Positions 1 through 5,366 of a DNA stretch of 6,603 nt are shown in pieces. The notes below the pieces were generated by a model. That model was not told the origin of the DNA. It saw nothing but the letters and a program-made list of their open reading frames with translations, and ran no database searches. How positions within the stretch are numbered: position 1 is the first letter of the stretch; each line of letters begins with the position of its first letter. Made by a program: the position numbers and the translations under genes. Origin of the DNA: a bacterium. GTDB taxonomy: Bacteria > Blakebacterota > Blakebacteria > Blakebacterales > Blakebacteraceae. Location of the stretch: the NCBI GenBank assembly GCA_025774615.1, contig JALGVQ010000157.1, forward strand, positions 1-6,603, read 5' to 3'.

Positions 1-222
1 CCTTCCTCCCACGATCACACCCAGGGCAAGGAGACCGAGCAGTTCACCCACCTGATCCACGTTCACCGGAAGTCGACCGGTTTTCGCCAGGCGACGCAGG
101 ATGAGGAATCCGATCGCAAAGCCAACGAGGTACATCATCCCGTACCAACGGATCGCGAATGGTCCCGGCAGTTCGAGGAGGATGGGATTGATGTTCGGAT
201 AGAGCCAGCCGATCGATTCCAC
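1..222 (-). CDS. lgt: Prolipoprotein diacylglyceryl transferase, N-terminal 74 codons (cut by window edge)
   Basis: Lgt is an inner-membrane enzyme that moves diacylglycerol from phosphatidylglycerol to the lipobox cysteine of prolipoproteins, the first step of lipoprotein maturation. The visible 74 residues begin [18 protein letters not shown], followed by PFAIRWYGMMYLVGF at about 21-35. This matches the Lgt N-terminus, where the WYG(L/M)MYL segment enters the first membrane helix. Hydrophobic stretches lie at about 28-42 and 61-72. The catalytic histidine and arginine regions are beyond the window, so activity cannot be judged. The start is GTG at 222; its G is the last base of the rarA TAG stop, and AAGGAG at 230-235 sits 7 nt upstream, supporting this start. 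The gene is therefore co-transcribed and probably translationally coupled with rarA. Identification is by recalled family pattern, not a search. Confidence 0.93.
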   Translation of the reverse strand, partial: MESIGWLYPNINPILLELPGPFAIRWYGMMYLVGFAIGFLILRRLAKTGRLPVNVDQVGELLGLLALGVIVGGR

Positions 223-1550
223 TACTCCACTCCTTCTGAGCCTGATTTTTCTTCCTGATTCTTCTTCATTATCTCATCCCGGCGACTGCGGAGCCAGTCC
301 AGCCGCTCGGATATCTTTGCCTCGAGTCCCCGCGTATCCGGACGATAGAGCTGCAGATCTGAAAGTTCTTCGGGCAGATAACTCTGCGGCGCGAGGGCAT
401 CGGGAAAGTCGTGATCGTAGAGATACTCCTTCCCGTATCCAAGATCCTTCATCAGTGAAGTCGGGGCATTGCGCATGTGCAGAGGCACCTGCCAGGAAGG
501 ATGCTCCCTGGCTGCCTTGCGGGATTCCTTTTCAGCACGATAGATGGCGTTGCTCTTCGGTGCCACCGCCAGATAAACCACCGCTTCGAAAAGGGCTATC
601 TCACCCTCCGGACTGCCGAGGAAGTGATACGTGTCCCGGGCAGAGAGAGCAATCGAGAGGGCCCGTGGATCTGCCAGACCCACATCCTCAGCCGCCATAC
701 GAACGATCCGTCGTACCACGAAGAGCGGGTCTTCTCCCCCCTCGAGGATCCTGGCCAGCCAGTAGAGGGCACCATCCACATCTGAACCGCGAACAGCCTT
801 GTGCAGCGCGGAGATGAGATTGAAGTGGGATTCACCAGCCCGGTCGTGCCGGCTGGTCTTCTTCGACAGGAGATCGCCTACGAGACCGGCCGTGATCTCT
901 CCGGTGGCAGCGGCAGCGCTCATCTCCAGAACGCCCAGCAGAGTGCGTGCGTCTCCATCGGCCAGCCCGACCAGTACCTCCTCTACCCCCTCTTCCAGCG
1001 CCAGAGGGTTGCCATCGGCACCGGTCACGCCGCGTTCGGCATCGTTCATGGCGCGTCCCAGAAGAACATGCAGGTTCTCTTCAGACAGCGGCTGAAAGGG
1101 AAAGACGGTTGTTCGGGAGAGAAGCGGAGCATTCACCTCGAAAGACGGATTCTCGGTCGTGGAGCCGATCAGAACGATGACGCCCTCTTCCACATGCGGC
1201 AGGAAGGCATCCTGTTGAGCCTTGTTGAAACGGTGGATCTCATCCACGAAGAGGAAGGTGGGGATCCCCTCCACCCACTGGCCCCGCCGTGCCTGCTCCA
1301 CTACTTCCCGTACTTCCTTCACTCCGGAGAGGACCGCCGAAAAACTTTTAAAGGGCGCGCCTACATAGCCGGCCATCAGTCGACCGAGGCTCGTCTTTCC
1401 CGTTCCGGGAGGACCCCACAGGATCATGCTGGGGATCTTCCCCTCCTCGATCAGTCGGCGCAGCGGCATCCCCTCCCCGAGGAGGTGCTCCTGTCCCACG
1501 AATTCATCCAGGGATCGGGGCCGCATCCGGTCGGCAAGGGGTGGATTCAT
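222..1550 (-). CDS. rarA: Replication-associated recombination protein A (RarA/MgsA), AAA+ ATPase
   Basis: RarA (MgsA; Mgs1/WRNIP1 family) is a cytosolic, clamp-loader-like AAA+ ATPase acting at stalled or gapped replication forks. The 442-residue length is normal. Visible motifs are Walker A GPPGTGKT (46-53), Walker B FLFVDE (99-104) followed by [17 protein letters not shown], sensor 1 GSTTENP (129-135), arginine finger LLSR (143-146) and sensor 2 GDAR (199-202). The MgsA C-terminal oligomerisation region follows, with [20 protein letters not shown] at about 247-266 and [21 protein letters not shown] at about 271-291. All ATPase residues look intact. The ATG start overlaps the stop of the upstream DUF4143 ATPase (ATGA, 1547-1550). 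The nearest Shine-Dalgarno-like GGAG lies about 11 nt upstream inside that gene, so translation may depend on coupling. The stop overlaps the lgt start. No separate promoter is evident, which makes the upstream operator region the likely control point. Confidence 0.97.
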
Positions 1551-2746
1551 CGGTCGAGCAACTCCGGCAGAGAAAGCAGCAGGAAATCGTTCAATGGAAG
1601 AGCATCATCACTTACGAGGATGGCGCGGCTTTCAGGATATCGCGATAAAAACGTCTTCATCCCTGATATTCCCGATTCTCTCACCCTCCCGCTTTTCACC
1701 TCGATCGCCGTGATACTCTCATTACTTCTGATCACGAAGTCCACTTCCCGATTGTTCTCACGCCAGTAATGGATCTCACAGTCGTGTATCATGGCTTCAT
1801 TGATAAGGTGCGCTCCAACCGCGGATTCCACCAGACGCCACCTGTATTCCCGGTCCGAGATCGACTCACTGAAGGTTTTCGCCGTAGACGCCGTCATCAG
1901 GGCAGTGTTCCACACCTGGAGTTTCGGGCTCGAGGCTCTCTTCCTCACGATACGTCCGGAGTACTTCTCGAGTCCGGCCAGAAAGCCGGCGCTGTTCAGC
2001 AGATTGAGATAGTGGGCCAATGTAGTTGTATTGCCTGCATCATGCAGCTGACCGAGCATCTTTGTGTAGGACATGACCTGACCCGAATATGCACAGCCAA
2101 GATCATACAGGCGTCGCAACATGACCGGCTTGTTTATCTGTGTGAGGAGCAGAACATCGCGGGAGATCGTTGTTTCGATGATCGAATCGCGAAGGTATTG
2201 CCGCCATCGATCCTCATCCTCGATCAATGACGCTGCCCCCGGATACCCTCCAAAGTGAAGAAACCGGTCAAGATCCCATCCGAAAGCATCCCGTATCTCT
2301 CTGAATGACCAGTGCGGGACTCTGATCATTTCGAAACGACCAGCCAGAGTCTCGGCGATTCCTTTTTGCACCAGGAGTGGTGAAGATCCCAGGAGGATCA
2401 CTCTCATATCCCGTTTGTGATACGTATCGGCATCCCAGAGTGCCTTAACCGCAGAGCTCCAGTCAGGGATTTTATGGATTTCATCCAGGATGAGAAGCAC
2501 CGGTATGTTCTCCCGCCCACCGGCAAGCTTCAATCGTGCTGTTTCCCATTGCTGTTCAATCCAGGCTGTGTCCTCTATGGCCGGGGCATCCGCCGAGGCA
2601 TAATGCGTCGGATGGGTAATCCGGTCCATGAGCTGTTGTACCAGGGTGGTCTTACCGACCTGTCGTGGACCGAACAGCACCTGCATGAACCGCCGTGGTT
2701 CATCGATTCGCCGATGCAGTGTTTCCAGATGAGGTCGTGAATACAC
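1547..2746 (-). CDS. AAA_14 / DUF4143 (COG1373-type) ATPase with PD-(D/E)XK-like C-terminus
   Basis: This 399-residue protein belongs to the widespread but poorly understood AAA_14-DUF4143 family; its cellular role is not known. The N-terminus has the family opening (RRFMQVLFGPRQVGKTTL), with Walker A GPRQVGKTT at 26-34. Walker B LLILDEIHKIPDW is at 84-96 (D88, E89) and a sensor-1-like ILLGSS at 117-122. A winged-helix-like stretch lies around 220-260. The DUF4143 C-terminus has LVESAVGAHLINE (305-317), YWRENNREVDFVI (327-339) and AIEVKSG (347-353). E307, D336, E349 and K351 are spaced like a PD-(D/E)XK nuclease core. The start is GTG at 2746: it is the only start before an in-frame stop at 2750-2752, and GAGG at 2753-2756 lies 6 nt upstream. 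The stop overlaps the rarA ATG. It has its own terminator-insulated, operator-bearing promoter, suggesting an acquired, self-contained unit. Confidence 0.9.
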   Translation of the reverse strand: MYSRPHLETLHRRIDEPRRFMQVLFGPRQVGKTTLVQQLMDRITHPTHYASADAPAIEDTAWIEQQWETARLKLAGGRENIPVLLILDEIHKIPDWSSAVKALWDADTYHKRDMRVILLGSSPLLVQKGIAETLAGRFEMIRVPHWSFREIRDAFGWDLDRFLHFGGYPGAASLIEDEDRWRQYLRDSIIETTISRDVLLLTQINKPVMLRRLYDLGCAYSGQVMSYTKMLGQLHDAGNTTTLAHYLNLLNSAGFLAGLEKYSGRIVRKRASSPKLQVWNTALMTASTAKTFSESISDREYRWRLVESAVGAHLINEAMIHDCEIHYWRENNREVDFVIRSNESITAIEVKSGRVRESGISGMKTFLSRYPESRAILVSDDALPLNDFLLLSLPELLDR

Positions 2747-2752
2747 GTGCTA

Positions 2753-2756
2753 CCTC
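2753..2756 (-). promoter_or_regulatory. Ribosome binding site of the DUF4143 ATPase
   Basis: GAGG lies 6 nt before the GTG at 2746 and fixes that start, because an in-frame TAG (2750-2752) rules out anything further upstream. The site overlaps the edge of repeat copy A, so folding of that repeat in the mRNA could affect access to it (inference). Confidence 0.6.
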
Positions 2757-2794
2757 GTGGCAGGGAGCCTGGCGATTATTCAGACAGATTCCTA
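2755..2794. repeat. Dispersed intergenic repeat, copy A (short form)
   Basis: On the plus strand this copy reads TCGTGGCAGGG, AGCCTG, five bases, then TATTCAGACAGATTCCTA. The same blocks in the same order and orientation occur at 5300-5366 (copy B), with one mismatch in the last 18-base block, 7 extra bases after the first block and a longer central spacer. GGAGCCTG (2764-2771 region) and CAGATTCC near the other end can pair imperfectly, so this looks like a degenerate hairpin. It makes up most of the 5' untranslated leader of the DUF4143 ATPase gene. I do not recognise a named repeat family. Confidence 0.7.
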
Positions 2795-2797
2795 TTT

Positions 2798-2837
2798 TAC
2801 TCAATACTTTGAGTAATAATACTCAATACATTGAGTA
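2798..2837. promoter_or_regulatory. Tandem palindromic operators: four alternating 7-bp half-sites at 11-bp spacing
   Basis: Two near-identical 18-bp palindromes, TACTCAA-TACT-TTGAGTA (2798-2815) and TACTCAA-TACA-TTGAGTA (2820-2837), are separated by ATAA. The half-sites begin at 2798, 2809, 2820 and 2831, exactly 11 bp apart, with 4-bp spacers, so every half-site falls on nearly the same face of the helix. The palindrome centres are 22 bp apart. The right palindrome fills the -35/-10 spacer of the minus-strand promoter, and the left one covers the presumed transcription start. This is the layout of a cooperatively bound repressor. The binding protein is unknown, and no regulator gene is seen nearby. 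Confidence 0.85.
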
Positions 2838-2843
2838 TGTCAA
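2816..2843 (-). promoter_or_regulatory. Sigma-70-type promoter of the DUF4143-rarA-lgt operon
   Basis: On the minus strand a perfect -35 TTGACA (2838-2843) is followed, after a 16-bp spacer, by a -10 TATTAT (2816-2821, 5 of 6 consensus bases). The start of transcription would fall near 2809, giving a leader of about 63 nt to the GTG at 2746. The spacer is almost exactly one operator palindrome. No other convincing promoter was seen for the three downstream genes, but internal promoters within the ATPase gene cannot be excluded. Confidence 0.75.
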
Positions 2844-2850
2844 GTCATGG

Positions 2851-5299: not shown

Positions 5300-5366
5300 T
5301 CGTGGCAGGGCACCAGGAGCCTGTCGGTGAAACTGTTAAAACGAAAGCTATTCAGACAGGTTCCTA
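5300..5366. repeat. Dispersed intergenic repeat, copy B (long form)
   Basis: On the plus strand the blocks are TCGTGGCAGGG, CACCAGG, AGCCTG, a 25-base spacer, then TATTCAGACAGGTTCCTA. Apart from the 7-base insert, the longer spacer and one mismatch, they match copy A at 2755-2794. AGGAGCCTGTC (5314-5324) and GACAGGTTCCT (5355-5365) form an 11-bp inverted repeat with a single G-U pair on the plus strand. The last three bases (5364-5366) are the TAG stop codon of the capA-like gene, so the element abuts and closes that reading frame. The rest of the 5202-5299 stretch contains only a small TGCTGC/GCAGCA hairpin (about 5215-5230) and nothing I can identify as coding. Confidence 0.75.

Follow-up and report, generated by a model that had tools for sequence, protein, structure and literature searches.

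A conserved double-palindrome operator over the promoter of a PDC-S01-type ATPase gene, probably bound by the ATPase itself

Genes and features at the locus

The window, that is the whole stretch of 6,603 nucleotides analysed here (contig JALGVQ010000157.1, from a member of the Blakebacteraceae), contains on its minus strand the gene for a PDC-S01-type ATPase, preceded by a promoter interlaced with two palindromes and followed by rarA, which in turn overlaps the start of lgt. The features are listed in Table 1.

Table 1. Position of the features within the window; the last column reports the basis of the assignment.
Feature	Position	Strand	Basis
-35 hexamer TTGACA	2838..2843	-	promoter reading and conservation in relatives
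-10 hexamer TATTAT	2816..2821	-	promoter reading and conservation in relatives
Upstream palindrome TACTCAATGTATTGAGTA, inside the promoter spacer	2820..2837	-	letters, shuffles, family consensus
Downstream palindrome TACTCAAAGTATTGAGTA, over the presumed transcription start	2798..2815	-	letters, shuffles, family consensus
Central divergent half-site pair TTGAGTA-N4-TACTCAA, same 11-bp phase	2809..2826	-	
PDC-S01 ATPase, 399 aa, GTG start; AAA_14, winged helix and PD-(D/E)XK in DUF4143	1547..2746	-	
AAA_14 domain, residues 21-151, with invariant or almost invariant Walker A (GPRQVGKT) and Walker B (DE)	2294..2686	-	
Winged helix, residues 207-261, predicted DNA-binding part	1964..2128	-	model and conservation
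Recognition helix, residues 240-252 (TTTLAHYLNLLNS)	1991..2029	-	model, conservation, variants
PD-(D/E)XK nuclease-like part, residues 324-380	1607..1777	-	
rarA (MgsA), lacking its first ~25 codons; start ATG overlapping the stop of the ATPase gene (ATGA)	222..1550	-	
Segment absent at the same locus in the sister genome; approximate bounds of insertion or replacement	1545..2850	.	
Terminator-like stem between the M23 gene and the inserted unit; conserved in the sister genome	2860..2885	-	

The distance between rarA and the M23 gene is 1,308 bp in the window and 118 bp in the sister genome (G001), where the ATPase is missing. The ATPase gene and its operator are therefore a recent insertion: the segment, operator included, took the place of the first ~25 codons of rarA and of the DNA before them. 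The conserved PLADRMRP core start of rarA is retained despite this loss. lgt and rarA adjoin in genome G003 too: the pair is old, while its position behind the ATPase operator is new and accidental, since the sister genome has rarA beside the M23 gene without the ATPase. A preliminary description of the locus had seen a switch on a DUF4143-rarA-lgt operon; the overlaps between the genes are indeed present, but control of rarA and lgt as its purpose does not stand, given the recent insertion, absent in the sister genome.

A pair of 18-nt repeats at 2755-2794 of the window reappears, in unchanged order, 2.5 kb away at 5300-5366; TATTCAGACAGRTTCCTA occurs in the genome only as these two copies.

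The operator-promoter in the window

Heptamers alternating between TACTCAA and TTGAGTA, with the 11-bp period already reported in the preliminary description, are located at 2798-2804, 2809-2815, 2820-2826 and 2831-2837. The four build two 18-nt palindromes, 22 bp apart. When the window is shuffled, a mean of 0.13 palindromes is found at up to three mismatches, versus the two real ones, and two are reached in one of 200 shuffles. In the source genome (3.3 Mb, 82% complete) no palindrome beyond these two is found at up to two mismatches. The same heptamers may be read in a second register, TTGAGTA-N4-TACTCAA, which is the one kept in some Planctomycetota.

The promoter boxes, separated by 16 nucleotides, match the consensus in 11 of 12 letters. 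The first palindrome, as previously proposed, fills the spacer, except that TATTAT overlaps its last two letters; the position of the second, over the presumed transcription start, is about right for these boxes. The interlacing of promoter and phased half-sites also holds beyond the window, the arrangement being conserved across phyla: promoter boxes stay in register with the palindromes among relatives, and in most of them the operator lies over the gene's own promoter, as in autoregulated transcription factors. Among 39 members with the palindrome pair outside the Bacteroidota, 22 have TTGA at 6-9 nt ahead of the first palindrome (expected 3.4%, p 1.6e-22), and 36 have TAnnnT between the two palindromes. 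Bacteroidota have promoters of another type; TTGA occupies that position in 6 of 36 Bacteroidota members only.

Occurrence of the operator in bacterial genomes

About 85,000 bacterial genomes, many of them metagenome bins, were scanned for two CTCAA-N4-TTGAG palindromes separated by any gap from 3 to 25; at least 116 stretches with two palindromes were obtained. Among the matches listed, 77 have a gap of 8, which corresponds to the 22-bp spacing of the window, and every other gap accounts for 8 matches or fewer. Again among the matches listed, a gene for the ATPase (~395 aa, AAA_14-DUF4143) lies directly downstream in 58 of 75 gap-8 loci, and in none of the 41 loci with other gaps. Operator and gene are found together in Bacteroidota, Chlamydiota, Verrucomicrobiota, Planctomycetota, Pseudomonadota, Nitrospirota, Elusimicrobiota, Melainabacteria and others. 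The phyla interleave in a quick tree of the members, which is no proof of transfer. The consensus over 62 sites, where some loci are counted twice, having been entered via two tools, is TTTACTCAATRYATTGAGTAAATTTACTCAATRYATTGAGTAAAAT: conservation extends to letters outside the search pattern. At these sites the start codon, assigned by rule, is a median of 14 nt from the last core letter.

Among the matches listed, ten double operators are orphans, with no such ATPase nearby (L014, L038, L044, L047, L051, L069, L073, L078, L081, L119), and are perhaps relics of lost genes; L051 still has ATGGATTGA at the customary distance, and an AbiEii-like gene comes next. In Bacteroides (L033, L043, L049, L061, L098) and Prevotellaceae (L040, L071), palindromes resembling CTCAA-N4-TTGAG, often CTCAAAGGCTTGAG, form tandem 22-bp arrays between ordinary genes, without the ATPase. 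In Cyclobacteriaceae (L075/L133, L055, L091) a further operator-like pair or single site follows ~90-120 bp downstream of the ATPase gene.

Palindromes of other kinds were also encountered. In Coriobacteriia (L032, 4962-5014; L052, 3472-3524), pairs resembling TTCTCAAC-N-TATTGAGAA, 39 bp apart, precede a different AAA ATPase gene (GVRRCGKST); in Chamaesiphon (L016, L064), CTCAAATATTTGAG pairs, possibly a partition site, are found ~98 bp before a ParA-like gene; in L090 and L126, tandem GCTCAAACGTTTGAGC-like palindromes stand directly before a LacI-type regulator gene.

The operator seen from the protein side

Family members were also gathered blind to the operator, at a threshold of E < 1e-50: among Bacteroidia 23 of 395 genomes carry such a gene, among Planctomycetota 24 of 294, and in the phylum of genome G014 33 of 232. 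Upstream DNA was readable for 70 genes, four of them from plasmid or phage records. At least one palindrome (up to three mismatches) precedes 61 of the 70, while shuffles give 0.85 genes; a 22-bp pair precedes 31, while shuffles give 0.0. The spacings observed are 22, 44, 23 and 46 only; in some members there are three or four palindromes, or an additional pair follows the gene. When either register is counted, the motif is present in 66 of the 70 relatives. The co-occurrence of the operator with AAA_14/DUF4143 genes, a check put forward in the preliminary description, is strongly positive from both the DNA and the protein side.

In 12 of 24 genomes carrying the gene, double operators (up to three mismatches) lie beside the ATPase, the remainder having more degenerate copies; away from the ATPase none was found in these 24 genomes, nor was any found in 20 genomes without the gene.

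The transcribed position of the second palindrome, near the start codon, could indicate that the inverted repeats act as RNA hairpins, in attenuation or in sequestration of the ribosome site. In the 121 palindromes of the protein-side set, however, 174 arm changes are one-sided and 11 are compensatory on both sides, as for a protein on duplex DNA, and the hairpin reading was rejected on these figures. The location of the first palindrome within the promoter spacer, and a strict 22-bp phase for which RNA offers no reason, also make it highly improbable.

The palindromes might, otherwise, mark a target or a boundary at which the one-gene unit moves or recognises itself, rather than a transcription operator. 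In the window the inserted segment has the operator at one of its ends, orphan sites exist, and in Cyclobacteriaceae the gene is flanked by pairs on either side; such downstream copies are, however, limited to that one group among 78 loci, no transposase or inverted end accompanies the unit, and the promoter boxes are in register with the palindromes, so that this role is very unlikely. Classification as a transposon or insertion sequence was rejected, as transposase domain and terminal inverted repeats are absent and operator copies on both sides are restricted to one clade.

The ATPase protein

The protein matches PADLOC PDC-S01 model PDLC04791 over residues 1-395 (E 9.8e-174). Across 59 sequences, G26, R28, Q29, G31, K32, D88 and E89 are invariant, as are E334, E349 and K351 in the nuclease-like part. 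In the structure model (mean pLDDT 92) the winged helix is placed between the AAA core and the PD-(D/E)XK part. Conservation peaks at residues 220-247 (0.84), a 28-residue stretch holding the helix-turn-helix; the AAA domain reaches 0.63 and the nuclease part 0.58. The top Foldseek match is archaeal Cdc6/Orc1 on origin DNA (2qby, E 7.7e-9); a second structure aligner ranks first the archaeal ATPases 2qen (Z 16.6, 255 residues, rmsd 3.2) and 2fna (Z 16.5), then CED-4 and plant NLRs. The fold is AAA+ plus winged helix, as in ORC and STAND proteins. A PDB search by sequence gave generic P-loop matches only, and nothing useful came from PHROGs and NCBIfam.

Archaeal Cdc6/Orc1 (2qby) and the STAND ATPases 2qen and 2fna share with the ATPase an AAA+ core followed by a winged helix, and Orc1 binds DNA boxes; the likeness is limited to these two parts, the DUF4143 PD-(D/E)XK tail falling outside, and Orc1 boxes mark origins. 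With Orc1/Cdc6 on origin DNA among the nearest folds, and three or four palindromes or a second downstream pair in some members, the main role of the ATPase when bound to the operator could be activation, or that of a sensor platform similar to origin or iteron binding, and not repression. This is unlikely, as the sites overlap the -35 box, the -10 box and the presumed start, positions which normally block polymerase.

Candidates for the binding protein

No conserved neighbour gene is found at the ATPase loci: the largest neighbour family is present in 3 of 52 loci, all close relatives. A type II toxin-antitoxin operon, for which two co-conserved genes are expected, was rejected on this count. 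Given the lack of both a conserved neighbour and, in the 44 genomes searched, any other double-operator site, the candidate regulator left is the ATPase itself, which is the most likely one. Of the two options initially considered, a distant regulator or participation of the ATPase, the finding of a one-gene unit with its operator and no conserved neighbour argues for the second and against the first. The site is probably the operator-promoter of a one-gene unit, whose PDC-S01-type ATPase-nuclease would bind the TACTCAA half-sites via its own winged helix, shutting off its own gene. The ten orphan double operators are evidence against such self-control.

Natural variants bear on the binding part. 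Ten members have V or A in place of T241, a residue of the recognition helix's first turn, and CTCAA half-sites are fewer in these members: a Collinsella record with V241 features TACTCAGTATACTGAGTA, Thermus oshimai, also V241, has arms TACTAG/CTAGTA, and A241 members have TGCGTA. For the association between the replacement and CTCAA loss, kinship being ignored, p is 2e-4 per gene, 0.0017 at the half-site level and 0.26, not significant, for the majority base per gene. In a sister clade (34-41% identical), helices are different (GALET and the like), TACTCAA is absent, and TCGAAT/ATTCGA-like letters are found in 3 of 5 members. These comparisons are suggestive of a tendency of changed recognition helices to go with changed half-sites. 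In a family-wide Mantel test of operator against protein regions, the partial correlation is 0.114 for the helix, 0.100 for the nuclease part and 0.089 for the lid: since lid and nuclease part also score, the helix is not singled out. Winged helices of related ATPases are often lids rather than DNA binders.

The 11-bp repeats of alternating orientation would bring all half-sites onto one face of the DNA, where joint binding of protomers is possible: several ATPase protomers may bind together, from -35 to +1, and silence their own gene. Upon activation, possibly triggered by phage or foreign DNA, the AAA+ ATPase would leave the operator; the gene would then be derepressed and the PD-(D/E)XK domain unleashed.

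Dyads upstream of other PDC-S01 genes

Other DUF4143 genes (65, from the genome of the window and from further genomes) were compared with 220 control genes, taken from contigs of the double-palindrome scan. An upstream dyad beating all 60 shuffles is present in 41 of the 65, versus 16 of the 220 controls (odds ratio 22, p 7e-20). PDC-S01 models are also matched by ten paralogues that come from other genomes and have other dyads. Of ten further plasmid genes, five have a dyad at p <=0.01. Many dyads of PDC-S01-type genes end within a few bases of the ATG. Their letters differ between subfamilies and are alike within a subfamily across genomes: TACCATGAAAAT for L152/L154/L201, GGAGTATACTCC for L187/L192/L207, and CCTTGyAAAT for L143/L179/L182, the last recurring in Cereibacter and Phaeobacter plasmids. 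Paralogues inside one genome have different dyads.

By reading only, the sequences upstream of seven PDC-S01 genes (L139, L147, L154, L177, L198, L200, L201) feature TTGACA, ~17 bp, a -10 box, 6-7 nt and the ATG; these genes appear to be leaderless, with transcription starting at the ATG.

Since dyads are different at other PDC-S01-type genes, one host factor cannot serve them all, which suggests that each PDC-S01-type protein controls its own gene. The operator might still be bound by a separate regulator, encoded elsewhere in each host: the preliminary description saw none encoded nearby, and Sulfolobales have an AAA ATPase/PD-DExK gene whose partner is a distinct winged-helix gene (PMC11065993). 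Such a regulator is improbable, given the same operator beside the same gene in many phyla and the absence of a conserved neighbour; with different dyads for paralogues in one genome, any distant factor would need to be present in all hosts and in many versions.

Relation to known systems and significance

PDC-S01 is reported to be the fourth most common predicted defence in prokaryotes, with 29,494 bacterial and 9,986 archaeal cases, and validation is pending for most candidates of this kind (PMC12988326). The ATPase described here corresponds to this single-gene PADLOC candidate in its AAA ATPase and PD-(D/E)XK parts, full-length match and scattered, one-gene occurrence; it differs in the operator, not described for PDC-S01 in the literature searched, where the antiviral role is that of a candidate. 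In the openly available texts found, neither operators for the DUF4143/COG1373/PDC-S01 family nor control of PDC-S01 expression is described.

Autoregulated type II toxin-antitoxin operons and the C proteins of restriction-modification likewise have palindromic operators that cover their own promoter and are specific to each system; those systems use a separate small DNA-binding protein, while here the candidate binder is part of the effector and no second conserved gene is present. The Sulfolobales pair SiRe_2374/SiRe_2373, a winged-helix protein and an AAA ATPase-PD-DExK nuclease proposed to act in immunity, shows the same link between this type of ATPase and winged-helix DNA binding; it differs in being archaeal and made of two genes, with a separate MarR-like winged-helix protein (PMC11065993).

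As a more tentative extension, PDC-S01 genes may constitute a very large family of one-protein switches, combining sensor ATPase, sequence-specific self-repressor and nuclease effector in one polypeptide, with a private operator for each paralogue and many insulated copies per genome. Operators of different letters at most PDC-S01 genes would mean that expression is held off by default. They would make binding and reporter assays immediately available for each subfamily, and would offer a handle on the trigger, that is on what makes the ATPase let go; the natural protein-operator pairs would be material for reading winged-helix specificity.
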